Assembly (NCBI GenBank): GCA_037576215.1
Contig: JBANDB010000016.1
Span: forward strand, 496,001-560,000
Source of the DNA: Armillaria gallica
Lineage: Eukaryota > Basidiomycota > Agaricomycetes > Agaricales > Physalacriaceae
Reading direction: 5' to 3'
Length of the DNA: 64,000 bases
The position numbers and the translations under genes are program-made. The notes under the pieces were generated by a model, which saw only the letters and a program-made list of their open reading frames with translations, was not told the DNA's origin and made no database searches. This document shows, piece after piece, positions 11,067 to 64,000 of this stretch. Position 1 is the first letter of the stretch. Each line of letters opens with the position of its first letter.

Positions 11067-11185
11067 CAGATGAAGTGCCTGTTGAAAAATGTGATGGCTC
11101 AGGTTGTAGTGCGTCACTCGGAGGAAGATGTCGTGATCCGGATTCCAAAAACAACCGCTGCAATCAGTGCCTTTTTTTTTAACCC
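11067..11185 (+). pseudogene. 4HB-1: fragment of the 4HB family, last exon only
   Basis: The stretch matches the last exon of 4HB-4 (23490-23600) almost codon for codon: KCLLKN, VVVRHSEE, then a basic IP(K) motif, ending in the family-typical T tract (nine T at 11172-11180). Exons 1-3 are absent; upstream lies a short dispersed repeat instead. A detached 3' end therefore seeds the array about 5 kb before the first recognisable full-length copy. Confidence 0.75.
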
Positions 11186-11189
11186 CCTG

Positions 11190-12430
11190 AGGCATGGCAC
11201 AAGTGCATCACTTGATGCTGTGACATATTAGATTTGCATGGCATGAAGTTCCTACCTATCACCACATTATAATTAAAGAACCACCCTTGGTCTATGTCGA
11301 TAATTCAGTCATCATCCTTGTTCGCTTGTCGTCTAGCAGCCATGCCAACAATATTGTGTAGACATCTACAAGTAGCTGCATCCTAGGTAGGGCGAGAAGT
11401 GGTATAATATAGTTATCAATCCAGAGACAAACATCCTGGCCTATGCAGTGCGTGCAGTCCTGAAAGAACAATTCTGAATACGTTCAAGGTTTGTATAGGG
11501 AGTTGCGACCGTTCAAATCGTCGTACAGTTGGGTATATGCACCAGTTATCAGACGTCGTTGCACTTCTCTAACAGCCCAGCATGTTGCTGCTACCTTGAG
11601 ATGATCTAGTTGTGTACCATCATATGTGCGACGATGCTTGCACTGTTCCATCAGGATGATGTGTCCTCATTGGCGTGCGGTAACGCACAGGTTCCACTTC
11701 CTGTCGACATGTAGTCAGTCAAGGGAAGACTCAGAGCTGCAGACATTCATCTTGAAGAGAAAGAGTCCATGATAATCAAGAGAAAAGAATCAAGGCAAAC
11801 ATATATCAGATGCGCCCACGCAGCCTACACAGCATCAGAGAAACAATGTAGATAGTAGGGCCTGGATGCCTCAATGGCTAGACCACTTTGCCTGATCGGC
11901 ACTTTTTCTACAGAAGTACAGTGTATATGATGCCAACTTCAGATGCATAATTGGAAGCTAGTCCATTTATTCTCTGTTTTGTCCATCTGCACCGCTTGTC
12001 TGTTCACTCATTACAAAAAAGAAATGGTGTGTTGTAGGCATCTGGAGACTGATGTTATATGTATGTGAAGTCAGTGATAATGAAAGCGGAGCATAATTGA
12101 TGCGATACAGGCTTGGCAGAACAGAAAGCACAGGTTAACAGCCAAAAGTTCATGCGCTTGACTGTCACGTTCTTTAAAAAAGAAAGCACATTCCCGAAAA
12201 CTCGTTCATTCGATTTTCCTCCTCCCGGCTTTGTCCAAATGACGATTGTATCATTCATTGCTTGGTAAATCATAATCATGGACAACAGCAAAGTACACTT
12301 GGACTGGGACAGGATGAATGAGGAATGTTGATCATGACAAGAACTGCGAGATATGGAGCTGCTAAAGTTGCTTCAATCAAAACCAATGAGGTTCTGAAGG
12401 CATCTTGTGGTACTCATGCATAAGATTTGC
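11190..12430. other. Stretch with no supported gene
   Basis: No long open frame and no motif I recognise. The minus strand between about 11370 and 11760 has short coding-like runs (for example AVREVQRRLITGAYTQLYDD) that may be a decayed mobile-element protein, but no family can be named. Confidence 0.3.
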
Positions 12431-15400
12431 ATCAGAGAATTTGGAATGTATCATTGCCATAATGACTTCCCCCAGCAACTCGACTTTTTTCTGTCTGACG
12501 AGAATGCGTGCTCATTGTTACAAATAATGCCTGAACGAGATATACCCATCTTGCTATCGCTCCCTCAGTCAATAGTTGTTTAAATGATGGGCTACCAATA
12601 GGTGGGTTACCGATATCTCTTGATACAGAACATTCTACGTGCCAGGCCACAGCAATGCACTTCTCACCAATCATCTGGGTACGCGATATTGGGGAGTGGC
12701 TCTACAACAGCGACTAGCCAACAAGATGAAGACATGTCTTATGGTCAGGAAGTAATACATAGAAACACCAACCGATATGGGGTTGTGTGCTATCTCGTGT
12801 CTGCTCTGTTTTTGAGAAACTGTCGGGAATTCAATAGGTAACTTTGAACTCTGGAGCTAATGCTTCCAGTGCATATCAGCAGTGTTGAAACAAGTCAGAC
12901 AAATGGCTACTTCTAGATATGCCTCGACATCCCTAAAAACCCTTCTGTTTGACAGAAGAAAGGAATTGGTGGTGACCACTGACATGAACCAGAAAAAGCT
13001 CGCTGGTCTGTAACCTTAGGAAATGTAGGGTTAGGTTCACATCCAAGCCTTGGGGATGAAAACATATCACACAGAAGACGCCTCTGTTCTGTTTCCTGGT
13101 CATACAACTCTTCATCATCCAATCACGCTCCAGAGTGTTTTCAAACGTAGCTGACACTGAATTCGCCTGGTCATTGGCTTGAGTAAAACACATCCTATGT
13201 GTCCTGCACTCAGAAGACCACCATCACTGCCATAGACCATCGACCATTTCTATCGCTGAGAAAGACAATGACAGAAGCATTTCAGTATACGATCTAGCAG
13301 AGAGATACTGCCCGACCTAAGCTCCCTGATGCAACGAGCGTAGATTGCAGAACGTTGCTGCAACATGACTGATGCTGACATGACCAACAATGTAGTGTGA
13401 GGTTGGTCAAGGAAGGTATTGTTACCGCTGTTGAGCGCAGTGAGCCTTGTCAGCAGGGATAACCCATTGCCCTAGTAGACGTTGGACTGATATTCTGATC
13501 GTTGTCAGCAGTAGTCATATGGTTTGTTGGAAATGGTCCTGGGTATACGAGCACATCCATTAGTTTGAGATCTCCGAATCAAAAGAAGAAACGTACCGAT
13601 TTGAACTGGTATGAAAATCCCCCCAGCCTCTGTTTCCCCAATATATGCGGCTTCCAGAGCCTCGCTCAAGCCTTTCTGCGTTCCATATGCCAACCTCTTG
13701 AGTTGGAACACCTAACTATAACTTGTACCACTGTCATAAGCAGCTGGGCCACAGGATGTTGAAGAAATCTCCAGCAAGAGACATAGTGGCCTATTCATTG
13801 GGAAGAGTCTCGGTGGCGACATGCATCCATGTCGACGCCATGACACACTACATAAAGGAAGGGAATCATTAGCATAGAAGATAGAGTACTTTTTATTCAA
13901 CTCACCCACAACTAACACCACCCAATGACGGATGTCCTTCATATCACAGGTGAAACACACATTGTGCCATCTTCATGTACAATGATCGCTCTGTGCCTGC
14001 AATGTATATCCTTGCAGGCTTTGCATTGATCTGATAGCGTTGGGAGTTTTCTGGTGTCAGATTAAGATTAAGATCGGCAGGATGAATGGATGTGTCGGAG
14101 TAACATCTGGGAGAGAGAATAGAGCAGGTCAGCTGTCGAAATGAAGGAATGTCTATAGAAAGGCTTATGCAATACAACATCACATGGTATGCTTCCACCT
14201 CGCCTCAATTACAGAAATCCTTCCTCTGTCATTACTAATCCTTCCTCACCACACTAGGAAACTGACGTGGACTATTTAGGGTGAATGCGGCACAGATACA
14301 CCATACTGAGACACCATGGAAGCAAGGGACAAGCCAGCTTGCTGCATACATCCACCTTCCCATGGTCCACGCAGTGTGTTTCATCTGAAGCAACATTTCT
14401 GAGTGTGATGGGCGGCCCTTATATAAGACTGCTTGTAAGATCAGTATAATGAAGCAAACTTGAAATGAACACAAAAACATACTTGATGCTGTCAGAGAAC
14501 CATGACATTGGGCTAATAAGCTACACGAAGGAAATGCTGCCTCAAAAAGGGAGCTTGGAAGAGCACCAAAGTCAGATCGTAGGAAGGCAAGAATGTCAAC
14601 GATGGAGGGGAAAAAAGAAGTGTTGTTTTGCAAATTAGTCCTGATTTGGAACGCAACTCTTTTCCCGGTCAATCATATCTGCATGCAATAATTTGTCTGA
14701 CAACTGCAAAGAGCACCGTATGAATAATTGTGGAAATATTAGACCTCTAGTTACACCTGCATATGGGAGTTACATGGTCTTGGTGAGACTCTGGAAGCGA
14801 GCCCACGGCCTGGGTGGTATTTTGGCAAGAAATCCTAAATATACGATGACATTAATAAGAATAAAAATGTGCCAGGGATCGGAAAAGCAGAGAGCAGGAC
14901 CATCAGACCAAACTTGTTGAGAACAGGAACAACAGCCAGTCTGACCCAACGAAGAAACGTGTCCATGGCATGGGAACTTTCTGCACCTCCTCCTCCCTCC
15001 TCCATTGATAATCCGACTATTCTACCAACACCCTGTTGTGTGCCCATGGTCTATCTACCTTGTAGCTTCCATGCTATAACTACCATCGAGACGAAACTGC
15101 AAGAGTGACATCTTGGTCCAAAGGCCACTGCGTTCCCTGCAAATTCCTTTATAGAATTGCAATCTGAGCCAGGAGGTAGACACAAGCAGCATGAGCAGAC
15201 TTGGTTTATGATCAACTCAAGAAACCAAATTCAAAGATCGAACATGCGTTCACCAGTCTCTGCTAAATTATCATATTGTTGACTTCTTTGCATAACAGGA
15301 GGCTGAGCGCAGGCTTGAATTCATGTGTACTTTGTGGTTTTATATCTTCTTCCCATTGACATTGAGAGCTAGCCTTCAAGGTTATACGTTCCCACTACTC

Positions 15401-15694: not shown

Positions 15695-16087
15695 TCTATG
15701 ACACTTTAGATGTCATCAAGTAAGTCTCGCTCTGGTCTTCTCCTCGGATTTCTCCCAACTGTCTCTGTTTCTAGACATACACTATTTACGATCATGGTCA
15801 GTACTATCTTTGGTATCAAGCCATTTCAATAGTATGGCAATGGCCTCGAGGAAGTACAAAGCAATTATAGCTCCAGGTGTAGTAAATGGCCGTTCACCTT
15901 TCGGACATCTCTAAGTTTCTATCTGCTTGTTGCAGGATATCGCTCTCGGTCAGTATCCGTAATTATTCACTCTTCGGTTATCTTATCAGATTCTACAGCA
16001 CCGTTCCTTGGCACCATCACACTGCGAGTTTGACGCTGGCTCCTGCATCTCTCTCTACAGCACACTTCTCTTTTACCACCACCCACC

Positions 16088-16850
16088 ATGCCTGCCCTCA
16101 ATGCCTGTCTCCAAGTCACACATCTCGCTGAAGCTGCAGGCGACAGTGTTCCATACCTCGAAAGCATGGCCAAGGTCACCATACTCGTCTTCAAGCTCCT
16201 TGATGTTTGTCTTACTATACTTCGCCGTACGGATGTTGTCACTGATTCTGTGTTCTACAGCAAAAGGCGAAGAACAAGGAAAGTGCCAAGGAGCTCTGTG
16301 AGAGCATCGCCAACACGATCCTCGTCATCAATGACCTCGTTCATATGCAAGAAGGAACTTCATGTTATATCAAGATTTGCAGGGAGATGGAAACATGAGC
16401 TGCTGTTCCTATTTGCTCTCTTTCTTCAACAGCTACTTAATGGTCTGGTTATAAGTATCTTGAAAGGATGGCACAAGATATGAAGGATATTAAGCTCAAA
16501 CACCGTGGCTTTAAGGGTGTCTTCTGCATCGACGATTTCAGAGACACCATCCAGGCTTACAGGAGGCACGTAGATGATCTGAAGATGGACTTTGTGGTAA
16601 TATTTCCACTCAGATTTTTCGTGCCGCATCTCACGTTCTGCTGTAGATTCATTCAGTGGGTGACTGCAATTCAAAAGTCATGCAGATGCACCGCTTGTTG
16701 ATGAATGCAATGCCACAGGCTGCTGTTTGTCACTCTGAGGACTTGGAGGAGTTCATTTTCCGGATCCCAAAAAAGCCTGTTGCAATCACCACCCTTTTTT
16801 TTTTATACCCTGATCTGAAATGCGAGCCGGTTTGCATCATAAGTACCTGA
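16088..16850 (+). pseudogene. 4HB-2: HeLo/MLKL-NTD-like gene with broken intron 2
   Basis: Exon 1 (16088-16204) encodes the helix with HLAEAAGDSVPYLESMAKV. Intron 1 is 16205-16260 and exon 2 begins QKAKNKESAKELCESIA. Intron 2 has lost both splice sites compared with paralogues: donor GTGAGC is ATGAGC at 16395 and acceptor CAG-G is TAA-G near 16450. Exon 3 (YRRHVDDLKMDF near 16570) and exon 4 (IFRIPKKPVAIT, then a ten-base T tract) remain open to TGA at 16850. Changes at both sites fit G-to-A or C-to-T transitions. Unless a cryptic site is used, the product is truncated. Family assignment as for 4HB-4. Confidence 0.8.
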
Positions 16851-17975: not shown

Positions 17976-18739
17976 AAAATTCTATGTGCCTATTCCTCTG
18001 GCAGCGATTAATTTGAGCCAGGTGCTAACAATTATGTTCTAAGCATTTGTATGATTGTTTGTCAGTAAACTGGGTCAGCAGAGAGAGAGTGTGTCGTCTC
18101 CACCTATTCGGTTAGTAGGGTGTTTCAACTTTGCTATGTTAATTGACGTCTCTTTCCGCAGCATATTTGGCCATACCTCACATGGACAGAAAATCTCGAT
18201 TTTAATTCTGGCTTAATACTCGTCACATCCTCTTACAATACTTATTCATGTTGGAAGTCGAACTCACTATATACCCTGGCCGGATACTTACTATATTTAG
18301 GTAGATTACTATTTACATATTTGTGTTTTCATACGACAATTAACTTACCTTTTACCACTATGATGTCCGTTCACTATGCTTTGCCTATGCCCATATCCCT
18401 GAATTCCAACAATTCACTCCTTGACTGACACCAGCAAATCAAGTCAGGATGTCAGAGTAGTGAATATGCCCTTCGATAGAACCAAAATGTGGAGAGAAAT
18501 ATTTCCTACATGGCGACCAAAGTCAGCCATGAAGGTATTGTTTACTTTTCAAGGAGTCCTAGACTATCCCTGTTTGTCACTGAATGCTCTGGAGCTGAGG
18601 CCTATGACTCATAATTATTTGCGGATTATCGGTTCACTTGTGATAGTTACAGATACAAGTTCCATGAGTAAGTAATAGAGATGGTTTGTTGTTACTATGT
18701 ATCACATGCTATCCTTTCTGTAAGTCCAAGTGGGGATAC

Positions 18740-19215
18740 CTAGATCCAGAATCTACTGATCCTTCTTTTGATCCTGTTTCTTTCATGTCTCACATCTTAG
18801 TGAGGATGCGGTGGATCTCAATGAGCACCAACATGCTGTTACCCATTAAACAGGTCTACAGCATGCAAAGGGGTTAGATCATCACCTGCACAAAGTGGAA
18901 AGTATGCATACAAAGAAGTCCATCTTCAAGTCATCAACGCATTTATTGTAATCTTGGATGCCGTCTTGGAACTTGTTGACAATAATAAAGCCCTGCCGTG
19001 TATGGGTTGTGCATCTTTCAGATCGTGGGCTATGCCAGTGAGGTGACCATCAGCTGTGGAGTGAATACATCATGCAAGAACAGTGACCGTCCCTTCCATC
19101 TCTGTGCCAATGTCCCGGAAAGAGGTTGCTTCTCACTCCCCATGCATATGGTCATGGGTTGGGCTAACTGAGGACTGTATCCATAATGCTGTGCCACAGC
19201 TCCATCACCTCCATC
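18740..19215 (-). pseudogene. 4HB-3: heavily decayed copy, exons 2-4 only
   Basis: Minus-strand traces of exon 2 (FRDIGTEMEG near 19115), exon 3 (LTGIAHDLKDAQ near 19035; VDDLKMDFF near 18925) and exon 4 (LVLIEIHRIL-like near 18815). Stops and several indels interrupt it, and exon 1 is not found. It resembles the subfamily of 4HB-9 and 4HB-16 more than its neighbours. Confidence 0.65.
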
Positions 19216-20090
19216 GTCTTATTTGTTCTTTGATTTGTTCTATTGACACCGCAGTCAGGGACAAGAATTACACCCGTCGGCAAAAGCAGTGTGCATACCG
19301 CGAGTAGCCCTATGACAGCCATGGGGACCTTGGCGAGCCTCTTGACCTACAGTATACCGGAAGCCTCAACAAAACGGATGACTTGAAGAAAGGCATTGAG
19401 AGTGTGCAGGTGGCGTGTGCTTGGAAAGGTATGTGCTGTAGAGGCTGGGCATCTATCATCATGGTGATAGGAGAATGTGCTGTATGATGCTCTAAGATCT
19501 TTCTAGACCTGCATCATGTGAAGGAATACTGAATTCAGTGTTACACAGAACACAAGGAGGAATAATCCATGTTAAGGAAAGCAGAAAAGCACACCCTTTC
19601 ATGGACAAAGACGAGAGACGATAACAACGCTCAAATGAGGGCATTCTGAACATGGAGAGGCTGCCATTCAGGCGTAAACAAGGGCTAGCAATGGCAAATT
19701 AACAATATAGGGACAACAGCTGGAAGGAGCACATTAATATTCTCTACATAATGGTAGATCTGCTGGACTCAAATGCCAATACAAGTGGTTTATGCGATCG
19801 AAGTGAGAATGAAGAAGAACGGCATCGACTTCATGGTCTGGACTGGGAATTATTGATTCGAATCTCTCAGGAAGCAAGATTCTCCTCTTTGGGTTACCTC
19901 AGATACATGGTTATCTGATGATAAATGAACCAGGCCCACCTTCGAACAGCACAAGCAGTCTAGCAGTGTTAAGAATCAGAGTATTTAGAGTAATACAAGA
20001 AGTAATGAATACTCGAGTAAAACCCAATTTGTGAGCAAAGATGTCCGAGAGCGAGTTCCAACCACCAAGAGGGATTCGATATGGGTGCTA
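19216..20090. other. Stretch with no supported gene
   Basis: Short frames only. A possible solo-LTR start (TGTTAAGAATC at about 19969) was considered, but no matching end or target duplication could be found. Confidence 0.3.
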
Positions 20091-20091
20091 A

Positions 20092-21451: not shown

Positions 21452-22082
21452 TAGACTGGTTACTATCTCTCTGACCCTTGACGTTGCAAGCAAGAAAGGG
21501 TTATCAGAGAGACTGGTAAATCTGACTTTGAAATCCCAATGCTGCGCGGGTGGCTGAAAAGAGGTCATGTGAATATCATGTGTAGGTTTCGGACCGAGAC
21601 ACGTCCGCCGTGAATACCGCCGTTTACACGTCTCCATCCAGTATTAATACTATGAATGCCTCGCATAGCTCCCTAAATATTCCAGACACCTATAACTTGT
21701 TCCCCGAACTCGTAAAGCAGACCCCAAGCAGCCCAGGAGGGTCAGAATTGCCCTTGAGGGCAATTTACGAAGGTTGATGTATCAAAGCGAAAAGATTTTG
21801 GCGGTAAAAATAGGTTCAGCAGTGGAAACAGGTCAATAGAGACAGACATGGTCAAAATAACAGCGTTATATTGGAGGGGCGTTCGCGTTACATTAAAGTA
21901 AGAAGCAAGTAAAAATAATCGGCAGCCGGTTGGAGTCAGTCCGAAGTCTACACGTGATATTCACATGACCTCTTTTCAGCCACCTGCGCAGCATTGGGAT
22001 TTCAAAGTCAGATTTACCAGTCTCTCTGATCACACTTTCTTGCTTGCAACGTCAAGTGTCCAGAGAGACGGTTACAAGTCTA
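21452..22082. mobile_element. 631-bp non-autonomous DNA transposon with long TIRs, Mutator-like
   Basis: Left arm 21452-21592 and right arm 21941-22082 are inverted copies of each other (about 141 bp, sharing ACTTTGAAATCCCAATGCTG and similar tracts), with termini TAGACTGGTTAC and TAGACTTGTAAC. A perfect 9-bp direct repeat CACACATCC flanks the element (21443-21451 and 22083-22091). Long TIRs plus a 9-bp target duplication are typical of Mutator-like elements. The interior has no transposase frame. The paralogous block at about 39190-39215 lacks the element, which supports a recent insertion. Confidence 0.85.
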
Positions 22083-22880: not shown

Positions 22881-23610
22881 ATGTCCGCCCTCAACGCCTG
22901 TCTCCAAGTCGCACGTCTCACCGAAGCCACAGCCGATAGTGTTCCATACCTCGAGAGCATGGCCAAGGTCGCCGTACTCGTGTTCAGGCTCCTTGACGTT
23001 CGGTTTACTATCCTTCGCCGTACGGATGTTGTCGCTGATTCTGCGTTCTACAGCAAAAGGCGAAGAACAAGGAAAGTGCCAAGGAGCTCTGTGAAAGTAT
23101 CGCAAACACGATCCTCGTCATAAACGACCTCGTTCATATGCAAGGAGAACGGGAATGTTCTGGTTATATCAATATTTGCGGGAAGATGGAAGGGTGGGTT
23201 GCCGTTTTCCTTTCCTTTCCTTCCTGAACAGCTACTCAACCGTCTTGGTTGCAGGTATCTTCAGGGCATGGATCAAGATTTGAAGGATATTAAACGGAAG
23301 TACCGTGACATCAAGGGTATCTTCAGTGTCGACGACTACCGAGACGCCATTCAGGGTTACAGGAGGCGCATAGATGATTTGAAGACGGACTTTTTGGTAA
23401 TATTACCGCTTCCAGATTTTCCGTGCCGTAACTCACATTCCTGTGTAGATCCATTCAGTGGGTGACTGCCGTTTGGAGGTCACGCAGATGCACTGCCTGT
23501 TGAAGAATGCGATGGCTCCAGCTGTTGTGCGTCACTCAGAGGAGTTCGTTTTCTGGATCCCGAAGAAGCCTGTTGTAATCACTGCCTTTTTTTTTCAACC
23601 CCGCCCATAG
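22881..23610 (+). CDS. 4HB-4: intact HeLo/MLKL-NTD-like four-helix-bundle protein, 186 aa
   Basis: Model: exons 22881-22997, 23054-23193, 23255-23396 and 23449-23610; introns of 56, 61 and 52 bp with GT...AG ends and phases 0, 2, 0. The frame is open throughout and ends in TAG. Helix regions: LNACLQVARLTEATADSV (exon 1), KAKNKESAKELCESIANT and a following amphipathic run (exon 2), YRRRIDDLKTDFL (exon 3), then an exon with RHSEEFVFWIPKK and a hydrophobic ITAFFF tail written by a nine-T tract. The KNKE..KEL..I / C..ME..L..I..DL / YR.R.DDL...F pattern matches the MLKL N-terminal-like domain of Agaricomycete proteins, which in characterised relatives targets membranes. No kinase, NB-ARC or repeat domain follows. 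Cell-death or allorecognition function is inferred only. Confidence 0.85.
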
Positions 23611-23639: not shown

Positions 23640-24480
23640 TCAACATGATGTAACAGCCTTACAGCTGCACCCAGATTTCAATACACTTACGGAATGTTCT
23701 TGGATCCCAATAAATGTAAAGGCTAGGATGCCTCCATATCTAGCAGTGTACTTGCTATATGCTATCAAGATCTTGTCCAGGCCCCAGTCTGATACGGCTG
23801 AAGATCAGAGGCGGATACTCTTTGCTTCCTTTCGCAACTCTCATGGCAAATGTGAAATTGCCGCTACAGCGGTGTACTTTAAGATTCATTATTCTACCAT
23901 ATGGCCTTGCAGCGAAGACATTGAGCTGACGGCTACAGATTATGTTCTAAGATCGATACGGTTGTTTGTCAGTGAACCGGGAAACTTGGCTGAAGTAAAT
24001 GGAGAGAGAATATTTAAGGACTGTTGTTTCCACCCGTTAGGTCAGTCTGGTATATCAGCTTATCCATATCAATGTACATTTTCTTTCACTACGTACACAG
24101 AAAACCTCGATTTTGTTTCTGGCATATTTCTATTTTGGTAGCAGAGTCGAGTACATCACTCTTGCACCTGCTACTCACTCCAATTGTGGTCGAAAGCCTA
24201 CACGTTTGCAATAACACAGAACCTGGGCCAGTCACGTTCAAGTAATAATAGTCAATGGTAGGATATATCCCTCTACTCCTGATGCAATTCGTATTCGAAG
24301 AAAGTAATAAATGATGGAACGAGAAAGGAGAATGATGGCTGATAAGAGACGTCTTGACTAGCGGTTTACTTGTAGTTGTGTAATATTCTTACAGAATTGT
24401 GTACAGCTACGTGTTATAAATAGCTACAGATACGGGTAGGCGGTATCAACATTTGAAACCTAGTATCACTGCCCTCGGGT
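23640..24480. other. Stretch with no supported gene
   Basis: Plus-strand open stretch 23728-24141 has no recognisable motif and no paralogue preserving it in the other blocks. Otherwise nothing seen. Confidence 0.3.
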
Positions 24481-24481
24481 T

Positions 24482-24850
24482 TAAAAAAAAAAGCCGCGCA
24501 TGTAATTGTGATTCGAATGATCACTGACCTTCTTTCGATGCTGTTTCCTTCGCGTTTCTAATATTGGCCAGCATGCTGTGGATCTCAATGAGCGCCAACA
24601 TGCTGTCCCCCATCATGTGTATCTACAGCACGCAAGGACGTCATACCATCGCCTTCGCAAAGTGGAAAGTATGCGTACCAAGAAGTCCATCTTCAAGTCA
24701 TCGACGCGCTTCTTGTAACCTTGAATGGTGTCTTAGAACTTGTTGACATCAAGAAAGCCTTTGAATCCGCGGTGTTTGCCCTGCATGTCATTCAGGTCCC
24801 TGGCTATGCTCGTGAGATATCTGCCGATTCTCGAAAACGCTGCTACCAGT
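24482..24850 (-). pseudogene. 4HB-5: truncated copy, exons 3-4 only
   Basis: Minus-strand exon 3 encodes LNDMQGKHRGFKGFL and KKRVDDLKMDFL, with a TAA in place of the family glutamine at the KFQDTIQG position (about 24729). Intron 3 keeps GTACGC and TGTAG ends. Exon 4 encodes MLALIEIHSMLANI and then shifts frame before the T tract (ten bases at 24483-24492). Homology stops at about 24850, so exons 1-2 are lost. Related to the 4HB-9/16 subfamily. Confidence 0.75.
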
Positions 24851-25547: not shown

Positions 25548-26269
25548 TCAAATCAGGGGTAAAAAAAAAAAGGCTGTGATTGCAGCGGGCTTCTTAGGGA
25601 TCCGGAAAATGAACTCCTCCGAGTGACGCACAACAGCCTGAGCCGTTGTATTCTTCAAGAGGCTGTGCATCTGCGTGACCTCCAAGTGGCAGTCGCCAAC
25701 TGAATGGATCTACACGGAATGTCAGAGACGGCATGGAAAACCTGGAAGCGATAGTATCACCACAAAGTCCATCTTCAGATCATCTACACGCCTCCTGTAA
25801 GCCTGAATGGTGTCTCTGAAATTGTCGACACAGAAGACGCCTTTAAGGCCACGATGCTTGAGTGTAACATCCTTGATATCTTGCGCCATGCTTTCAAGAT
25901 ACCTGTAACCAGACCATTGCTAAGCTGTTGAAGAAAGACAGCAAGTGCAAACGGCAACTCACCTTTCCATCTCCCCGCAAATATCAGTATAACATGAAGT
26001 TCCCCGTTCTCCTTGCATACGGACGAGAGTGTCGATGACGACAATCGTGTCTGCAATACTCTCACAGAGTTCCTCGGCACTCTTCTTGTTCTTTCCCTTT
26101 TGCTATAAGGCACAGAATCAGCGATAACATTCATACCGGATACTATGGCTAAACGAACCTCGAGGAGCTTAAAGACAACTACGGCGACCTTGGCCACATT
26201 CTCGACGTACGGTACGCCCGAAGCTTCAGCGATGTTGGCGACTTTGAGACAGGCGGTGAGTGCAGACAT
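25548..26269 (-). CDS. 4HB-6: intact HeLo/MLKL-NTD-like protein, 184 aa
   Basis: Minus-strand exons 26159-26269, 25963-26102, 25761-25902 and 25548-25709; introns of 56, 60 and 51 bp, GT...AG, phases 0, 2, 0. Open to TGA at 25548-25550. Exon 1: CLKVANIAEASGVPYVENV; exon 2: KGKNKKSAEELCESIADT; exon 3: YRRRVDDLKMDFV; exon 4: RHSEEFIFRIPKKP, then phenylalanines from an eleven-T tract. Exon lengths 111/140/142/162 match the family. The upstream leader keeps the conserved CATTTGTCGCGGGATAT-like block and 5'-UTR intron sites, and the 34-bp motif lies 1.0 kb upstream on the same strand. Its duplicate in the second block, 4HB-13, is broken. Role inferred as for 4HB-4. Confidence 0.85.
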
Positions 26270-28080: not shown

Positions 28081-28170
28081 ATGCCCGCCTTTCTCCAGCT
28101 CGCCGGCATCATCAAAGCTTCCAATATACTTTGCGCAAAGGTTGCCGTAGCCGTCATTGAGCTGCACAAG
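28081..28170 (+). pseudogene. 4HB-7: relic, exon 1 only
   Basis: ATG is followed by 30 codons (LQLAGIIKAS, AKVAVAVIELHK) and a GTATCC donor. It matches exon 1 of 4HB-9 with several codons deleted in the SIPYVEKL region. Exons 2-4 are absent downstream. Its duplicate is 4HB-14. Confidence 0.7.
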
Positions 28171-29604: not shown

Positions 29605-29664
29605 GATGAAGAGGATGAGCACGATGAAAGGAGACAAAGAAAAGAGCAATCGGGTCCGCCCATT

Positions 29665-41320: not shown

Positions 41321-41325
41321 CGTAT

Positions 41326-48049: not shown

Positions 48050-48149
48050 CCGACATTTCAAATGGCGACTTCTGGATTCTCGCATCCTGAAACGTTGCTA
48101 CCAATCAAGGTATTGGATTTCTTCACCTAGACGGTATTTCACGATTGGC

Positions 48150-48583
48150 CGAGAAGAACCCTCTGAAGCCACGGGGCTTGCGCCTAAAATCCTTGTTATC
48201 TTGCGTCATGCTTTGAAGATAGCTGAAACCGGACGGTTGAGTACCTGTTGAAGAAAAACATATAATAGAAGGCAGCTCACTCATCCATCTCTCTATAAAT
48301 ATCGCTATCACACGATGTTTCCTGTTCCCCTTGCATACGAACAAGGGTGTCGATGACAACAATTGTGTCTGCGATACTGTCACAGAGCTCCTTGGCACTT
48401 CTTATTCTTTCGTTTTGGCTATAAGACATAGAGTTAGCGACAACATTTGTACCGCATACGATGGCTAAACGAACCTCCAGGAGCTTGAAGACAACTACGG
48501 CGACCTTGGCCACATTCTCGATGTACGGTATGCCCGAAGCTTCAGCGAGGTTGGCGACTGAGACATGCGTTGAATGCGGACAT
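48150..48583 (-). pseudogene. 4HB-13: broken duplicate of 4HB-6
   Basis: The minus-strand ATG (48581-48583) is followed by a 2-bp deletion within the first ten codons compared with 4HB-6, shifting exon 1; the rest of exon 1 reads NLAEASGIPYIENVAKV in the shifted frame. Exon 2 has further small indels at its start. Exon 3 stops halfway (GF(R)GFFS) at a junction with the leader-like CGTGAAATACCGTCTAGGTG sequence near 48150, and exon 4 is gone. Confidence 0.82.
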
Positions 48584-50397: not shown

Positions 50398-50399
50398 GT

Positions 50400-50884: not shown

Positions 50885-51857
50885 TCACATTAATCTCACT
50901 GAGCAGGCTTCGGTTATCAAAATACTCATTAGTGGGGATCTCGAAATGGACCTGAAGTTAATTTTGAGTAAAAGGCACTCGGAGCAACAAATGCAAAGAC
51001 TCACCATATATTCCGTTTCGAAGGAAGCCACGGCGGAAAAGAAGTGGCTCTCATCATGAGAGTTCATATACAGAGTACTGGAATTGAACTGATGTTCTGT
51101 CGCCTCTGTCATACACACGTACGGCTTGGGAACAGTAGGCTGAGCATGTATAGGAGAGCGTGTTTGTTGTTGAGAGACGCGCTTCTTCGGGGGCTGGACC
51201 GGGGGTGTCCTCGGTATCGGGGGCATATTCCTCATCGCATCCTCTAAATCCGAGCCACTCATCCCAGACGACATCAAATGAGCAATGTCCTTGGCCCTAT
51301 TGATGTGATCCTTCGATTTACGCCGCACGTTCCTCTTTTTGATCTCCGTGGCACGCCTCCGGGGTTGGTAATCGTAGTCAGGGTAGAGCTTCTGGTGTCT
51401 CTTCCTGTCCTCTCGAGCACGACGATAGTAGTGAGCCTTTTCGTCCTCCGAGAGGTTCTTCCACAGCTGTCCGATGATCCTGGAGAGGTGGTGACTATCG
51501 TGCTCGGCGCCTTTGGGAATCAAGTTCTTGTCGACGACGTCTTTGCGGAAGATGAAGTAGCAGTTCAAAGGTCGGGGGATACGATTCTTCTTATGAGAAG
51601 AATCATTGGTGGAGGAGAATTCGTCGGAGTGAGAAGAAGAGGAGGATGGAGATGGAGATGGAGTGTCGATGAACTCGGGTATCGAAGGGCGGTATCTGGG
51701 TATGGAGACATGACAACTTTGAAGACATACTGCTGAGGTTGGCTAGCATGGACATAGGCTGGAACAGAGCGTCAGCACAGAGTCGGACGCGTAGTAACCA
51801 AGTCCACGTACCATAGTGCTCGTTAGAGTGCTGGTGAGAGTGAACAAAGCTGGACAT
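50885..51857 (-). pseudogene. HMG-box transcription factor, copy 2, frameshifted before the box
   Basis: Start ATG 51855-51857; first exon and a 53-bp GT...AG intron as in copy 1. Near 51680-51700 the sequence encoding the PYPDTEPPTPEF region is one base shorter than in copy 1, so the N-terminal frame leaves the box frame. The box itself is open and conserved (PLNCYFIFRKDVVDKNLIP, HLSRIIGQLWKNLSEDEKA, LYPDYDYQPRRR), as is the basic C-terminal region. If an internal start were used, a box-containing protein of about 227 residues is possible. I call it a pseudogene, with that alternative open. Confidence 0.75.
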
Positions 51858-54200: not shown

Positions 54201-54202
54201 TT

Positions 54203-55143: not shown

Positions 55144-55149
55144 CGGAAA

Positions 55150-55744: not shown

Positions 55745-56486
55745 AATGAAGGTATTCGGTTTTTCATCAAGCTAAAAAAAAAAGGGTAGACTTTGTGATT
55801 CGGATCATGATCTCGTCTGATGTCGGTTCCACCAAATCCGTGAACCGCCCCACAGCGCCATCCTTCAAATCCTGTACCACGATGTGAACTTGGATGACTT
55901 CCGAAAAGCAGTCACCCATTAAATGGATCTACCAGCACAATAGGTCAGCCTATCGCCCTCGTAAGTTGGAAAGTGAACGTACCAGGAAATCTATTTTCAA
56001 GTCGTCCACACATTTCCTGTAAACCTGAATGGCATCTCTGAACTCATCGACATTAAAGATGCCTTTGATGCCACGGTGCTTCCACTGCGCATCTGTCAGA
56101 TCTTGGGCTATTCTCCCGAGGTCTCTGCCATTTCATCATGGGCTGTTGGGGATATACAGCAACAAAATAGCGACTCACTCTGCCATTGCGCCACCAAAGG
56201 TCCTCGAAATATGGAGCCGCACATTCCCCGTGCATACCGACAAGGGTATCGATAACGATAATTGTGTTCCCAATGCTCTCGGAGAGCTCCTTTGCATCTT
56301 TCTTGTTTTTTCCCTTTTTCTACAGGCAACCCAAGGTAAGAGGAAGATATGGTACGGCAGAGACGGGATACGAACCTCAAGCAGTTCAAAGACAGCTACG
56401 GCGACTTTGGCTAGCTTTTCGACATAGGGTACACCGGAAGCTTTGGCAATGTTGGCGACTTGGAGACAGACGCTAAGAGCGGGCAT
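55745..56486 (-). pseudogene. 4HB-15: duplicate of 4HB-8 with a 1-bp insertion
   Basis: The minus-strand ATG is 56484-56486. Exon 1 is open (CLQVANIAKASGVPYVEKLA) and introns 1-3 keep GT...AG. Exon 2 has one extra base relative to 4HB-8 in the FEDICGAM region (about 56190), which shifts exon 3 out of frame to an early stop. Exon 3 and 4 sequence is otherwise well conserved, including the ten-base T tract, so the lesion is young. Confidence 0.83.
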
Positions 56487-56738: not shown

Positions 56739-56959
56739 TGTTGAGGTATATGGTAATTACCGATACAACTACGCACCTGTAGATAGACATATTTGTATAT
56801 ATTATTTTCCAAAGCTCCCGCAGCCGGCAGCCACATAGCGCCACCCGCTCTTTCTTGTTTCCTCAGTTCGTCATCATTACGACTGAGGTATGTTTCGTAT
56901 TTACTCATTTAATCTACTATTACTTACTCCTGATGTAGCATCTCATTTAGACTTCATCA
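56739..56959 (+). repeat. 5' LTR of the copia element
   Basis: 221 bp, TG...CA. Contains TATATATT near 56809 and, at 56888-56938, a 51-bp segment GTATGT...GATGTAG that looks like an intron. Confidence 0.95.
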
Positions 56960-57042
56960 GGTAATATATTGAGTTTGTCATCATTACGACTGAGCATCTC
57001 ATTTAGACTTCATCAGGTTATGGGCCCCGCGCTCTAACCGAC
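56960..57042 (+). other. Copia leader: spliced LTR-tail copy and primer-binding site
   Basis: After 12 bases the leader repeats the LTR end (56972-57015), precisely lacking the 51-bp GT...AG segment: AGTTTGTCATCATTACGACT, GAG, then CATCTCATTTAGACTTCATC, A. Next comes GGTTATGGGCCCC (57016-57028), the complement of GGGCCCAUAACC, the anticodon loop of initiator tRNA-Met, with complementarity continuing into D-arm-like sequence (GCTCTAACCGAC). Internal tRNA priming of this kind is known for Copia. Confidence 0.7.
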
Positions 57043-57286
57043 CTCGATCTCGTGCTCAGACTGTTCCGGACGTCCTCGCCCCTTCGTGCCTCTCTTGTGA
57101 CCACCATATCAAGGTTTCACTTTGATTCGTGCTTCTTTTTCCCATCCCGGAGTTACACTCTGGTTCCTTTTTGATCCCGGTCTTTTTCTGCTGGCACTGC
57201 CACGTCATAGGGGATCACGTGATCAAATCGCCACGTCGTAGCACGTCATGTGACTTCCGTCCGATCCGAATTCCACTTATTCCTTA

Positions 57287-60200
57287 ATGACCAAACCTGC
57301 GGCTGAAACTCCCAGTACTCCTGTTCAGCCTACTCCTCCCACTATGTCATGGGAAATTCCCAATGCTGCTTCTACCTCTTTCTTTCCCAGTAAGAAGGAT
57401 AGCAAGCTTGTAGGAGAGAGTAATTATATGGTTTGGGCAGCACGAATGCAAACTGCATATCGTATCACAGAATTGTGGGATATTGCTTCCAAGGACTGTC
57501 GACCATCGAAGGACAACACATCGGAAACTGCTATCTGGGAGAAGAAGAATCTTGTCGCACTAGGGTTATTACAGAGCTCTCTCAACGACGATCTTGTCGC
57601 GTTGACAACTCATGAGACTCATGTCTTTCGTATTTGGCAAATGCTCGAATCGCAGATGAGTCAGAAAGGCTCAGGATCTATTCTACTATGGTTCCGTCAG
57701 CTCACCCGCCCGATGAACCTTGGATCTGACATCTCTGAACACATCACGCACTTCCAGGAAGCCCTCCGACACCTCACAGTTGCTGGATGGGACATCCCTG
57801 AGCATATTGCTGCCTGCATCCTCCTCTCCACACTTCCGCATGATCCCAATGAAGCTGATTCATGGGATGGAACGGTGAAGCAGATCAAAATTGACAAGGA
57901 CAGCACCACCTCCTCCACTATCAATGTTCTCCTTGATGAGAAACGTCGCCGTGCTGCTGCCAACATCAACAACCAACAAAAGCAGGAATCTGCCATGGCT
58001 GCACTAGATCGCAATGCCAAGTCCCGTGGCAAGCTTTATTGTCATAACTGCCGCAAGGAGACCAATCACATTGCTGCTGACTGTTGGGCACCTGGTGGTG
58101 GAAAGGAAGGTCAAGGTCCAAAGAAAAAGTCTAATAGGGGCACTACTAGTAAGCATAAGGGCAAGGAAAGAGCCCGACATGCTATTGATGATGTATCCTC
58201 TGCGGAGGAAGATTCCAATGTAATTATGTTTGAGAAAGCTTTCAATACATCTTCTTCCAACTATGATGCGTCTGAGAACATTGAGAATCAAGCGACAAAG
58301 GACCAAGCATACAATGCATGTACTGCTGGCCAGTCAGCCATCATCATTGACTCTGGAACATCCTCACATATTCACTCCAATCGATCCGATTTCAAATCTC
58401 TCTCATCCTCGTCTGGCAACATCAATGGTTTTGGCGATGGAAAGAGGAAAATTGAGGGGAGAGGCGAATTTCAAGTTACCGCCAAGCTACCAAAGAAGGG
58501 TTGTGCTCGTCTGAAGCTGAAGGATACCTGCTTTGTGCCGGATTCTCATCCAAGTCTGATCTCTGTATCAAGACTTGATGATGCCAAATGCTATACTCTC
58601 TTTGGAAATGGTAAGTATGTCACCTTTGAAAAGGACGACCATGGTAAACTCATGCGAGACACTTTGGCAAAGGAGAATGTCATGTTCACTGCCACTAAGC
58701 AGTCTGACCGCCTCTACCACCTTGATGTTCCAGGATCATTTACGGATACCTCATATAATACGACAACCTCTCCAAAGCCAACAAAACTGCAATCCCTCCA
58801 TGAAATGTTGGGACATCTTGGCCATCGCAATATCAAAGGCATGGTTAAGAAAGGAAATGTTTTGGGAATACGCCTTTCTACAAAGGAGTTGTCTGAGGAT
58901 CCAGGCATTTGCGCAGCATGCGCACAAGGCAAGAGCAAGCACGCTTCATTCCCACCCAGGGGGAGTGACTTAGCTAAAGATATTCTTGACCTTGTTCATT
59001 CGGATCTATGGGGACCTGCCCCGGTCCAGTCGTTCCATGGATACTGCTATCTATACACCTTTACTGATGATGCTAAACGTTGGGTCTGGGTTTATTTCTT
59101 ATGGAGAAAGAGTGAAGCCTTTGAAGTCTTCAAGGACTGGCTTGTCGAACAGGAGAGAGCGACTGGTAGAAAGCTTAAAAAGTACCAAGTCGACAATGGT
59201 GGAGAGTTTATCACCAACGAGTGGAAGAAATTCATGCGAGAGCATGGAATTCATTTCCAAACCTCTTCTCCAAATACTCCTGAGCAAAATGGCGTAGCTG
59301 AAAGCTTGAACCGTGTTATCTTTGACCGAGTTCGTGCCATTCTCATTGATTCTGGTCTTCCGATGTTCCTATGGCCTCATGCTGTACTCTATATCATCTG
59401 GAACAAGAACCGGAACCCCTCCTCTGCTCTCCATGGTATTACCCCCTACCAGGCTCGCTATGGCAAGCCACCCGACCTTAAAAATGTACATCGTTTTGGT
59501 GCTAGAGCGTTCCTTCATATTGATAAGTCTCAAAGGAACAACAAGCTCGCCCCGAGAGCCACAGAATGCATATTTGTAGGCTACTCTGAGACTCAAAAAG
59601 CCTTCAAGGTTTATCTGCCTGAGAGACGTAAATTCCAAAACTCAGTGCATGTCAAGGTGGACGATACAATTATTGAGTTCAGTCATAAGACTGAGGGGGA
59701 GAACACTACTCCAACCGATTATTCTGCTTTCAAACCTCAAACAGATGAAGATGAAGATGAAGACAGTCTTACACCTTCTCCTGAGTCTACCAACAAACCT
59801 TTAGAAGCACAACCTGTCTCTGAGATACCACTCAAGCGTCAACGGAAACCAAAAGAACGGCCCCCACCTCGCAATAAGTCAAAGCGCATACAGGGATTGC
59901 AGCCTGATGATTCAGCTACAACTGACCCTCCATTGGAGAAACCTGATGCTGCTCCAGGGGGAGTATCTATACCTGTTAATGAGCCTGAAGATGAGCTTAT
60001 CTCAGAGACCACTCAAATTGCAGTTGCCATGTCTGCTTTCGCAAATGAAATTGCAGAGTTAACAGATGAAGAGACAAAGAGGGAGCCTCACAACTATAAA
60101 GAAGCAATGAGCTCTCCTGACTGTGATCTCTGGGAGGACGCCATGTGGTCTGAATTCAGCAAGGTTACAGCTGCTGGAACTTACAATCTGGTTGACTTGC

Positions 60201-61684
60201 CTGCTGGGTTCAAAGCCCTTGGCAGCACGTGGGCATTCAGAATCAAGCAAGATGAGACACATGCTATCACTGAGTATAAGGCTCGTATCTGTGTCCAGGG
60301 GTTCACCCAAGTACCTGGGATTGATTTCTCTGACACATATGCTCCTACCTCCAAGATTGAAGTTGTGCGCCTACTCCTTTCTATGGCTGCCATTCATGAT
60401 TGGGAATTCCATACTGTTGATGTCAATTCTGCTTTCCTGAACAGTGAGCTACCACGTGACCAGCCTGCTGTGTACATGAAACAGCCTGAAGGTTTTGTCG
60501 TTGAAGGCCAAGAGAATAAAGTCTGGGAACTGCTGAAAGCCCTCTATGGTCTGAAGCAAGCTGCCCGCCTCTGGTATGACAAACTTAAGAAAATCATGAT
60601 CAAATTAGGGTTCAAAATCTGCATCTGTGACCCTTGTGTCTTCATCCGTGTACAGTCTGGACAACTTTCCATTGTTTCCTGTCATGTCGATGATTTTGGT
60701 CTTTTCTGCAATTCTGTAGCTGAAGTCAGCCTGCTCAAATCAGAAATACGTGAACATGTCAAAATCAAGGATGGTGGTGAAGGACATTTCCTTCTTGGCA
60801 TTGAAATCATTCGTGACCGGAAAGCTCGTACCATCTCTCTCTCCCACCGCCATTATATTGAGGATCTAGCTGAGCGCTTCCGCCTTAATACTGGTAGAGA
60901 CATTTGGACTCCAATGAATCCCTCCATCAAATTGTCCAAGAATGACTGTCCAGAGACTAAGGAGGACATTGAGTACATGAAGACTGTTCCCTATCAATCT
61001 GCTGTTGGTGGTTTGATGCATGCTGCTATCATGACCCGTCCTGATCTGGCTTTCCCAACACACAAGGTTGCACAGTTCATGCAAAACCCTGGTAAAGCTC
61101 ATTGGCATGCAGTTCAGCGCATCATTCGTTATGCATACACCACTCGCAATAATGTCCTTACTCTAGGGGGAGCTTCTCCAAAGCCAGGAGTCTCTCCACT
61201 CTATGCATATTGCGATGCAGATTTTGCCAATGAAAAAGATCACGCTCGTTCAGTGTCTGGCTATGCCCTGTTCTATGGAAATCAAGGTGCATTTGCCTGG
61301 TCAGCTAAGAAACAGACTGCTACTGCCCTCTCTACTGGTGAGGCTGAGTACTACTCAGGCACTCATGGTGGACGTGAAGTTCTTTGGATCCGCCAATTCC
61401 TTCATGAGATTGGGTTCAAAGAATCAGCACCAACTCCTCTCAAAATTGACAGTACTTCTGCCATTCGTACCATTGAAACTCCAGATCAAGTCAGTAATTG
61501 CACCAAGCATATCAATGTTGCATACCACTGGATTCGTGAAGCAGTGAAGGCGAAGATCATGCAACCAGAGTATGTGCCAACAGAGGATAATGTTGCTGAC
61601 ATTTGCACCAAGTCTTTGATGAGACCAAAGCATGAAAAATTCTCTCAAATGCTGGGCATGCATCCTCGCCAGGATGCGAGTTGA
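57287..61684 (+). CDS. Copia Gag-Pol polyprotein, 1465 aa, intact
   Basis: Single frame from ATG 57287 to TGA 61682-61684. Order is typical of Ty1/copia: gag (UBN2-like, residues about 25-240), zinc knuckle CHNCRKETNHIAADC (about 252; CX2CX5HX4C, one residue longer than canonical), aspartic protease IIDSGTSSHI (about 355), pre-integrase H/C domain (HEMLGHLGHRN ... CAACAQGK), integrase D,D,E (HSDLWG about 571; VDNGGEF about 636; NGVAESLNR about 671), RT (VDVNSAFLNS about 1045; SCHVDDFG about 1134) and RNase H (YCDADFAN about 1308; STGEAEYYS). All catalytic acids are present. Integration, reverse transcription and particle formation therefore look possible. No frameshift signal is needed. Confidence 0.97.
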   Translation: MTKPAAETPSTPVQPTPPTMSWEIPNAASTSFFPSKKDSKLVGESNYMVWAARMQTAYRITELWDIASKDCRPSKDNTSETAIWEKKNLVALGLLQSSLNDDLVALTTHETHVFRIWQMLESQMSQKGSGSILLWFRQLTRPMNLGSDISEHITHFQEALRHLTVAGWDIPEHIAACILLSTLPHDPNEADSWDGTVKQIKIDKDSTTSSTINVLLDEKRRRAAANINNQQKQESAMAALDRNAKSRGKLYCHNCRKETNHIAADCWAPGGGKEGQGPKKKSNRGTTSKHKGKERARHAIDDVSSAEEDSNVIMFEKAFNTSSSNYDASENIENQATKDQAYNACTAGQSAIIIDSGTSSHIHSNRSDFKSLSSSSGNINGFGDGKRKIEGRGEFQVTAKLPKKGCARLKLKDTCFVPDSHPSLISVSRLDDAKCYTLFGNGKYVTFEKDDHGKLMRDTLAKENVMFTATKQSDRLYHLDVPGSFTDTSYNTTTSPKPTKLQSLHEMLGHLGHRNIKGMVKKGNVLGIRLSTKELSEDPGICAACAQGKSKHASFPPRGSDLAKDILDLVHSDLWGPAPVQSFHGYCYLYTFTDDAKRWVWVYFLWRKSEAFEVFKDWLVEQERATGRKLKKYQVDNGGEFITNEWKKFMREHGIHFQTSSPNTPEQNGVAESLNRVIFDRVRAILIDSGLPMFLWPHAVLYIIWNKNRNPSSALHGITPYQARYGKPPDLKNVHRFGARAFLHIDKSQRNNKLAPRATECIFVGYSETQKAFKVYLPERRKFQNSVHVKVDDTIIEFSHKTEGENTTPTDYSAFKPQTDEDEDEDSLTPSPESTNKPLEAQPVSEIPLKRQRKPKERPPPRNKSKRIQGLQPDDSATTDPPLEKPDAAPGGVSIPVNEPEDELISETTQIAVAMSAFANEIAELTDEETKREPHNYKEAMSSPDCDLWEDAMWSEFSKVTAAGTYNLVDLPAGFKALGSTWAFRIKQDETHAITEYKARICVQGFTQVPGIDFSDTYAPTSKIEVVRLLLSMAAIHDWEFHTVDVNSAFLNSELPRDQPAVYMKQPEGFVVEGQENKVWELLKALYGLKQAARLWYDKLKKIMIKLGFKICICDPCVFIRVQSGQLSIVSCHVDDFGLFCNSVAEVSLLKSEIREHVKIKDGGEGHFLLGIEIIRDRKARTISLSHRHYIEDLAERFRLNTGRDIWTPMNPSIKLSKNDCPETKEDIEYMKTVPYQSAVGGLMHAAIMTRPDLAFPTHKVAQFMQNPGKAHWHAVQRIIRYAYTTRNNVLTLGGASPKPGVSPLYAYCDADFANEKDHARSVSGYALFYGNQGAFAWSAKKQTATALSTGEAEYYSGTHGGREVLWIRQFLHEIGFKESAPTPLKIDSTSAIRTIETPDQVSNCTKHINVAYHWIREAVKAKIMQPEYVPTEDNVADICTKSLMRPKHEKFSQMLGMHPRQDAS

Positions 61685-61691
61685 GGGGGAG

Positions 61692-61912
61692 TGTTGAGGT
61701 ATATGGTAATTACCGATACAACTACGCACCTGTAGATAGACATATTTGTATATATTATTTTCCAAAGCTCCCGCAGCTGGCAGCCACATAGCGCCACCCG
61801 CTCTTTCTTGTTTCCTCAGTTCGTCATCATTACGACTGAGGTATGTTTCGTATTTACTCATTTAATCTACTATTACTTACTCCTGATGTAGCATCTCATT
61901 TAGACTTCATCA
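61692..61912 (+). repeat. 3' LTR of the copia element
   Basis: 221 bp; identical to the 5' LTR except for T at 61778. Confidence 0.95.
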
Positions 61913-61917
61913 CATAT

Positions 61918-62656: not shown

Positions 62657-62688
62657 GGCCTGGGAAAACCGCGTCAATGGCGTGGGAA
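62657..62688 (+). promoter_or_regulatory. Upstream 34-bp motif (before 4HB-16)
   Basis: GGCCTGGGAAAAC, then CGCGTCAATGGCGTGGGAA. It lies 0.63 kb upstream of 4HB-16, same strand, paralogous to 35106. Confidence 0.7.
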
Positions 62689-63316
62689 TCGGCGGCCTTC
62701 TCCTTGCGCGTTCATGTCCCTGAGCTTTTCCGATCCTCTGCATTACTCCTTGGTCTCATCCTCCATTTCTGCCACGTTGTGCCTAAGCCATTTGACCAAA
62801 ACCCAACGACTTTACTCGCCGCTAGCCATGAGCTAACCTCATGGGAGTCAGAGTTCCGAAGGCGAATCTTCAGTACCCTGGAGGGTACGGACGACTAAGG
62901 AGAAGATGCTATTCTTCTCGATTTTGATAGCCTGAATGACGCGTATTGACACTTTGGACGTGGTCTTTCCAATACATTTGGTGTTGCTCTCCGACCGTTG
63001 ACTGGTGCGTTCATTTCAGTCTGTTATTATCCTGACATAGCTAATATTCACCGGGAATTAGCTCCGTTCGTAGCTTGGCCAATATCAATCCCCATACGCC
63101 GGCTGATATCATTGTATTACCACCTTTAGCTACGAAAAGGCATGCCACTCTCGGTAACCTGCTCTCCTTAGGCGCATCTTGTACATCATCACATTGCCGT
63201 ATAACACCGCATTTGGTGTGCCCTTACGGGAGAGGGCTCTACAATCATCTCTACACACCGCTCTGATGCTAGACGCTCGCACTCTACAGCACATACCTTT
63301 CTCAGCACCCACCACC

Positions 63317-64000
63317 ATGCCCGCTCTCAACGCAACTCTCCAAGTAGCCAGCCTCGTCGAATCTTCCGGTATACCATACGTCAAGAAGCTCGCCAAGGTT
63401 GCCGTAGCTGTCATAGAGCTACTCAAGGTACGCATACTGCCGTTTCCCGTTACAATTCTTGCCTCTGACTCTGCAGCGTCAATAGAAGAAAGCAAAGAAC
63501 AAGGAAGATGTGAAGGAGCTCTGCGAGAGCATCACCAATACCGTCAATGTTATCAAAGCCCTTGTCAGTATGCATGGGGAGCAAGGAGCTGCATATTTCA
63601 AGGACATTTGTACAGAGATGGAAAGGTCGGTCGTCGTCCTCTCATGCTGTATTTCCTTCACAGCTAATAGTCAACTGGCAGATACCTCACGGGCATAGCC
63701 GACGATTTGAAGGACGCCCAGCGAAAGCACCGCGGACTCCGAGGCTTTTTTAACATCAACAAGCTTCAAGACACCATCCAAGGTTACAAGAAGCGCGTAG
63801 ACGATTTGAAGATGGACTTCTTGGTACGTGTACTTTCTGCTTTGCAAACACGATTATTTGACCCATGGCGTGCTATAGATCCACATAACGGGCGACAGCA
63901 AGTTGACGCTCGTTGAGATACGCCGCATGCTGGCCGATGTGAAAAACGTAAAGGAAGCAGCCTTGAAAACAGACTCGGTGATCATTCGAATCACAATTAC
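63317..64000 (+). CDS. 4HB-16: HeLo/MLKL-NTD-like protein, open to window edge
   Basis: Exons 63317-63427, 63486-63625, 63682-63823 and 63879 to beyond 64000; introns of 58, 56 and 55 bp, the same lengths as in 4HB-9. No stop or frameshift in the visible part. Exon 1: LQVASLVESSGIPYVKKLAK; exon 2: KAKNKEDVKELCESITNT and YFKDICTEMER; exon 3: KHRGLRGFFNINKLQDTI and YKKRVDDLKMDFL; exon 4: GDSKLTLVEIRRMLADVKN, then VIIRIT. The stop codon and T tract lie outside the window. It is the block II counterpart of 4HB-9 and probably functional if 4HB-9 is. Confidence 0.85.

Follow-up and report, generated by a model that had tools for sequence, protein, structure and literature searches.

Results

A cluster of single-domain genes for a predicted four-helix bundle

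The window analysed here, 64,000 nucleotides of the Armillaria gallica contig JBANDB010000016.1 (C16:496001-560000; assembly GCA_037576215.1, 86.0 Mb in 28 contigs), covers the right end of a cluster of small genes. Their products, about 175-200 amino acids long, consist of a single domain, predicted to be a helical bundle of the four-helix-bundle (4HB) type, and a short conserved tail. The cluster comprises dozens of such genes, many of them broken, and spans about 450 kb (C16:117-568 kb), thus it extends far to the left of window position 11067, where an earlier reading of the sequence alone (the sequence-only reading) had placed its start, and it also continues past the right edge. That reading counted sixteen loci in the window, ten of them broken, whereas we find 14 clear ones, eight of which are broken or truncated (Table 1). 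The five complete open genes and a sixth one open to the edge were counted correctly, and the presence of several subfamilies on both strands is borne out by the locus models and the protein tree. Individual copies are designated by a coordinate, in the window or, when it has six digits, on C16. We consider an additional weak fragment at 28081-28164 (E 0.008) to be doubtful; the candidate at 19580-20036 was rejected, as it looks spurious. Two relics and an HMG-box copy lie in the roughly 8.5 kb beyond the right edge, and from about C16:568.5 kb to 620 kb no further copy was found at E <= 1e-3.

The exon pattern recognised earlier, 111-117/140/142/159-228 nt (stop codon included) with intron phases 0-2-0, was confirmed; the introns are GT-AG and usually 51-61 nt long. 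All six open window genes have GT-AG introns and, with the exception of 39978, exons of 111-117/140/142/159-213 nt. In 39978 (exons of 139/130/142/228 nt, first intron 44 nt) the usual exon-1 donor is gone and the model uses a GT 22 nt downstream; P0049 of A. ostoyae and P0051 of A. mellea, both relatives, have an annotated exon 1 with a similar extension. The end of gene 35807 was taken from the reading frame, disregarding an additional exon proposed by the program. A single conserved exon-2 word had 7 matches at <=3 mismatches vs. a mean of 0.00 across 100 shuffles.

With a purpose-written spliced-alignment program we modelled 58 candidate loci: 40 in C16:356-620 kb, which was read completely, 17 in selected stretches to the left of this region and one at 1.25 Mb, at least six other C16 matches left of 356 kb being outside this count. 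By the rules of the program 19 loci have open spliced frames, 32 contain frame breaks or stops and seven are fragments. Two of the 58 (515580 and 413353) are probably spurious. Among the 19 open loci, three (244187, 256697 and 302197) are heavily CpG-decayed, and for two of these the model lacks a start ATG; in 462948 most of exon 4 is missing.

At the family level a transcript-like sequence does exist: in P0028 (source 'lgn', a 1,139-base contig), which is 83% identical to the product of 63317, all three exon joins are intron-free. P0028 likely comes from the cDNA of a relative rather than from a window copy. Other short entries, P0056 (ncbi/lgn), P0129 and P0132 (both ncbi), run into intron 1, thus prediction does not always remove introns there. 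Exons 3 and 4 are also joined in P0128, the end of which we take to be translated sequencing adapter.

Table 1. Clear 4HB loci of the window (window coordinates; exons in the order of transcription)
Position	Strand	Description	Exons
10971-11210	+	exon-4/tail fragment of a truncated copy; 11067-11180 is the conserved tail	
16088-16818	+	broken copy, frame break and stop, raised CpG-to-TpG change	
18709-19400	-	broken copy, several frame breaks and stops, without T-run	
22881-23610	+	open gene	22881-22997, 23054-23193, 23255-23396, 23449-23610
24450-24822	-	truncated copy, broken, exons 3-4 only	
25548-26269	-	open gene	26269-26159, 26102-25963, 25902-25761, 25709-25548
33358-34086	-	open gene, subfamily of A. 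gallica P0001	34086-33976, 33915-33776, 33721-33580, 33525-33358
35807-36581	+	open gene, pairs with A. gallica P0022	35807-35917, 35976-36115, 36172-36313, 36369-36581
37511-38184	-	diverged relic, exon-2-like part recognisable	
39978-40772	+	open gene, altered exon-1 donor	39978-40116, 40161-40290, 40351-40492, 40545-40772
41168-42028	-	broken copy	
48072-48583	-	broken and truncated copy	
55767-56486	-	broken copy, one frame break, within duplicated segment	
63317-64000	+	open gene, stop at 64037 (37 bases past edge)	63317-63427, 63486-63625, 63682-63823, 63879-(64037)

Predicted fold and probable kinship to MLKL-type proteins

AlphaFold models were obtained for two A. gallica proteins related to, and distinct from, the window's own spliced products: P0001 (43-sequence alignment) and P0022 (68 sequences). 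Both are all-helical, as expected of the proposed bundle, with a mean predicted local distance difference test score (pLDDT) of 70 and 75, respectively, and values below 50 in the tail after residue 156. The helices span residues 2-17, 20-39, 43-95 and 109-154. Foldseek searches with these models gave no match at E <= 0.001. In VIA-align the best natural matches were the N-terminal four-helix bundle of Cbl and coiled-coil (CC) domains of plant nucleotide-binding leucine-rich-repeat (NLR) proteins, with designed bundles and CAMP factors ranking close to them; these natural matches do not reach the level at which a match between bundles is decisive. The matches listed included no MLKL or HeLo chain, which excludes nothing. 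DSSP draws 43-95 as one helix, inside which a turn is suggested by the match to Rx CC and by short indels near residue 70. Basidiomycete MLKL-like proteins (BaMLKLs), which include hundreds of singular members, are described as having a four-helix core and an extra N-terminal helix (Wojciechowski et al. 2022, PMC9815663). The predicted helix layout is consistent with this, as far as the undivided 43-95 helix allows the comparison.

A second group of genes, at C1:5.37-5.64 Mb, encodes a homologous bundle followed by a kinase-like region, which is the layout of MLKL. The match between the array profile and 28 homologs of this group (E 1.9e-28; bundles 31% identical) shows, at the level of sequence profiles, that the array bundle is homologous to the N-terminal domain of the C1 4HB-(pseudo)kinase proteins. 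Sixteen of the 28 match a kinase model at E <= 1; of five values inspected one was strong (3.5e-34) and four were below the cut-off. A C-terminal kinase-like domain is present in the C1-type relatives only: the open array genes end after bundle and tail, so that their stand-alone status, noted earlier, is upheld. The singleton at 1.25 Mb, for which the query start is approximate, has MLKL_N as its top Pfam match (13.6 bits, cut-off 27), and in its A. ostoyae ortholog P0113 MLKL_N ranks second (13.0 bits, cut-off 27), the two matches being co-linear. The program counted this singleton as broken, owing to a possibly artefactual break in the variable tail. Some relatives carry UniRef labels ('Fungal STAND N-terminal Goodbye', 'Fungal N-terminal domain', 'NACHT-NTPase and P-loop NTPases N-terminal'), which we take to be Goodbye/HeLo-like/SesA-type.

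From these data we infer that the domain belongs to the BaMLKL (MLKL_NTD-type) class, and that the array genes are kinase-free forms of it. The array proteins, however, matched no MLKL or HeLo model or structure significantly, and the MLKL matches are sub-threshold. Scans of the array proteins against Pfam, NCBIfam and PDB sequences revealed no convincing family, and MLKL_N was absent from the profile scans of array members (in one scan, from the 25 of 46 families listed). Ten sub-threshold MLKL_N matches were found across the genome, all on C12 and C14 and none in the array. Of the HeLo/MLKL assignment made by the sequence-only reading there remains an indirectly supported kinship to MLKL-type proteins, carried by the profile match to the 4HB-(pseudo)kinases, the helix layout and the sub-threshold matches of the singleton and its ortholog. 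TFA2_Winged_2 (4.8e-4) and SDH_protease (8.5e-4; 10 members at E <= 1), the best two matches among 43 homologs, were set aside as matches to helix composition.

The group with the genome's best, still sub-threshold, MLKL_N matches lies at C12:2.16-2.39 Mb (L056-L058) and C14:2.52-2.53 Mb. By eye, the two of three C12 stretches that were translated resemble a further 4HB-type family, and in L056 kinase-like sequence seems to follow the bundle.

The conserved tail

In most members the bundle is followed by a C-terminal tail of about 19 residues, [E/D]xx(V/I)xRI(P/T)K..A(I)xAFFF, which is disordered in the models, rich in beta-branched and aromatic residues, and kept across subfamilies and species. 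In a protein search of the own genome all 29 matches of the tail fell within the array and none outside it at E <= 10; a degenerate tail pattern had 12 matches, 11 in the array and one elsewhere, vs. two for the reversed control.

The end of the tail is encoded by a run of 8-14 T in 24 of the 28 tail matches examined among 29 (two of the 28 overlap) vs. 0.46% of random 75-base windows; examples at the end of exon 4 are window 25561-25571 (-) and 36502-36512 (+). Six chosen copies of other subfamilies all have 10-13 T, and one subfamily has at least five relics that lack the run: 19400, itself broken, and four to the left of the window. In the last nine modelled codons phenylalanine is encoded by TTT 52 times and by TTC once, as opposed to 45 and 73 times in the rest of the codons. 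The near-exclusive use of TTT suggests that more than phenylalanine is being kept, and the T-run looks maintained at the DNA or RNA level. Folding the RNA of one tail revealed nothing notable (z 0.04).

Age, turnover and decay of the cluster

Among 100 matches to relatives 93 carry a species name, every one Armillaria or Desarmillaria, with ten named species. On a protein tree of 76 rows, placing the 19 own copies requires 15 label changes, as opposed to a mean of 17.1 after shuffling (45 of 500 shuffles were equally low), thus the own copies are spread throughout the family. Three of them form pairs with A. gallica proteins that have starred support, and the support for a fourth such pair is 89; for the one pair measured, the 34086 product and P0001, identity is 83%. 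Starred clades that mix own copies and other species contain, for example, 35807 and 63317, each next to A. gallica; 39978 next to A. solidipes, A. borealis and A. ostoyae; 256697 next to A. solidipes, A. nabsnona and Desarmillaria; and 34086 among 12 rows, some of them from Desarmillaria. A clade of five members from Desarmillaria only (starred) and an A. novae-zelandiae clade of three (support 93) point to local expansion. The family members sit on a contig of the same size in 13/13 cases for gallica, 10/10 for solidipes, 8/8 for nabsnona, 5/5 for mellea, 9/11 for tabescens, 7/10 for borealis, 7/9 for ostoyae, 7/9 for luteobubalina, 4/6 for fumosa and 5/12 for novae-zelandiae. If same size is taken to mean same contig, most of these species have the cluster as a conserved locus.

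A segmental duplication in the window relates the region from about 28.5 to 34.1 kb to that from about 50.8 to 56.5 kb, with 84-96% identity over the stretches that match; its 4HB gene is open at 33358-34086 and broken at 55767-56486, and the copying could have gone either way. Turnover, as claimed by the sequence-only reading, is real, as shown by the duplication, the species-specific clades and the broken or partial state of more than half of the modelled loci; the claim that it is rapid needs qualification, as subfamilies are common to several species and there is no excess of amino-acid change. What these data show is an old birth-and-death gene cluster.

Pairwise ratios of non-synonymous to synonymous substitution rates (dN/dS) were calculated for the bundles of 18 open copies. 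The 102 of 153 pairs with dS < 1.2 had a median of 0.28 (quartiles 0.23-0.32), none exceeded 1, and the youngest open pair had 0.23 at dS 0.07. As a test of present function this ratio failed its control: 21 broken or decayed copies had a median of 0.29 vs. 0.28 for 16 open copies (P 0.10), thus the constraint it records is historical only. Most of the breakage is probably recent. Site-wise counting in 18 copies, a simple parsimony method of low power, found no site with an excess of non-synonymous and 46 with an excess of synonymous change at P < 0.1.

CpG-to-TpG rates were determined for 38 copies. All eight at C16:244-340 kb had rates of 0.21-0.42; of the remaining 30 only three reached this range, all of them broken, 16088 and 56486 of the window being among them, and the six open window copies had 0.04-0.13. 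Such an excess is the mark expected of methylated CpG. C16:244-340 kb (L048-L055) is CpG-to-TpG-rich even in copies with an open frame, and is probably a methylated, silenced stretch.

Discussion

It is instructive to compare the array with the closest known systems, to which the plant NLR CC domains (Rx CC and the RPW8-type CC-R of NRG1.1) also belong. With the BaMLKLs (MLKL_NTD in CDD) the array genes share the helical bundle, a domain that occurs N-terminal to others or alone, and overlapping family labels similar to the UniRef labels of the array relatives (PMC9815663). They differ from them in forming a cluster of about 450 kb with a common C-terminal tail and T-homopolymer; the words 'Armillaria' and 'tandem' are absent from the main text of that paper. 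With animal and plant MLKL (4HB plus pseudokinase) the array shares the bundle-type domain, which the C1 relatives carry before a (pseudo)kinase; the array genes themselves have no kinase, and the MLKL_N similarity is sub-threshold and found in the singleton relative. A search by locus tags found no paper in the open-access library covered. A bundle standing alone before a short C-terminal segment is the architecture of the fungal HeLo/HELL executioners. The array resembles HET-S, HELLP and HELLF (PMC12881547) in this respect, but it has no sequence match to them, no carrier of the tail outside the array and no known amyloid motif.

A role in regulated cell death, either as executioner or as decoy, is our best inference. 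Tentatively, and as close to an even call, we consider the genes to be kinase-free BaMLKL-type bundles in a birth-and-death cluster, which most likely act as membrane oligomers in regulated cell death or immunity. The bundles would oligomerise at membranes; they might be executioners freed by an upstream trigger, for which the 4HB-kinase proteins are one possibility, or they might join these proteins in mixed assemblies as competitors that tune them. The working set would be reshaped between lineages by copy-number change, breakage and decay of the CpG-methylation type.

That the stand-alone bundles are not killers at all, only decoys or inhibitors restraining the 4HB-kinase proteins by co-assembly, seems to us fairly unlikely. 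A competitor role is common for single-domain fragments of oligomerising proteins, and both forms, with a homologous bundle, occur in one genome, yet the two bundle types are as different as 31% identity implies. Somatic incompatibility delimits individuals of basidiomycetes, including the very large genets of honey mushrooms, and the array could be an allorecognition repertoire, in which polymorphic open copies kill fusion cells when repertoires differ. Ascomycete heterokaryon incompatibility does use 4HB executioners such as HET-S (PMC12881547), the basidiomycete mechanisms were called 'completely unknown' in 2021, with 3-5 loci cited (PMC8229728), the integrity of the cluster varies, and subfamilies are common to several species. 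We nevertheless regard this explanation as unlikely: neither a site with excess amino-acid change nor a close pair with dN/dS above 1 was detected, and paralogs shared across species differ from alleles shared across species.

Only slightly less probable is a degenerating family without function, in which duplication goes along with the spread of transposons and the copies are retained though they have no role. The 32 broken loci and seven fragments among the 58, the CpG-type decay at C16:244-340 kb, the equal dN/dS of broken and open copies and the transposon remains in the window all fit it; the dN/dS far below 1 even in the youngest open pair, the exact intron structure kept by the open copies, the spliced cDNA-like relative, and the spread of the family over ten named species with common subfamilies do not. 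Effectors of the HET-S/HELLF kind, with the tail as an amyloid signalling motif templated by an NLR, appear very unlikely. The composition, position and conservation of the tail would suit such a motif, and amyloid-like C-termini were published for a few BaMLKLs; in the same published scan, however, motif-like fragments were found in only a few of 500 (PMC9815663). The tail is predicted with low confidence (pLDDT < 50), and its matches are confined to the array, the single pattern hit elsewhere being fewer than the two of the reversed control. No copy of the tail was found outside the array at E <= 10, a search that a diverged partner motif could escape; NACHT had 28 matches in the genome and none on C16, NB-ARC not having been searched for.

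To return to the kinase-free BaMLKL-type bundles, they form with the second, 4HB-kinase cluster of the same genome a mappable candidate cell-death machinery of dozens of members. Even if they serve another purpose, they offer a large set of naturally occurring single 4HB domains with which to ask what the bundle does alone. It is conceivable, though we think it improbable, that the C16 array and the C1 cluster together supply the executioners of a cell-death system for immunity or self/non-self recognition, with the kinase-free bundles as its variable, genet-specific part; if so, basidiomycete somatic incompatibility would have its first candidate locus at the molecular level.

Other genes and elements of the window

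HMG-box genes recur among the 4HB copies, at window 28639-29664 (-) and 50885-51742 (-), at C16:377503-378333 and at L009 7789-8538; the first matches Pfam HMG_box at E 6.1e-15, and the others were identified by similarity only. The A. ostoyae 4HB model P0010 is annotated as a fusion with the same HMG gene, thus the neighbourhood is conserved. A fungal transcription-factor gene (Fungal_trans_2, E 3.9e-10) lies inside the array at window 46342-47436 (+). Window 1-7100 is occupied by a Ty3-type element, recognised by eye, whose gag-pol-like frames are fragmented and whose end resembles a chromodomain, and 8030-9648 (-) by hAT-transposase-like pieces, for which there was no Pfam match at E <= 0.01. 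An inverted repeat resembling a miniature inverted-repeat transposable element, with 125-base arms (94% complementary) and a 338-base spacing, is found at 21473-22060. The element at 56739-61912, of Copia type by eye, has one open frame of 1,476 amino acids between two 221-base direct repeats that are 100% alike; it is a very recent insertion within the array.

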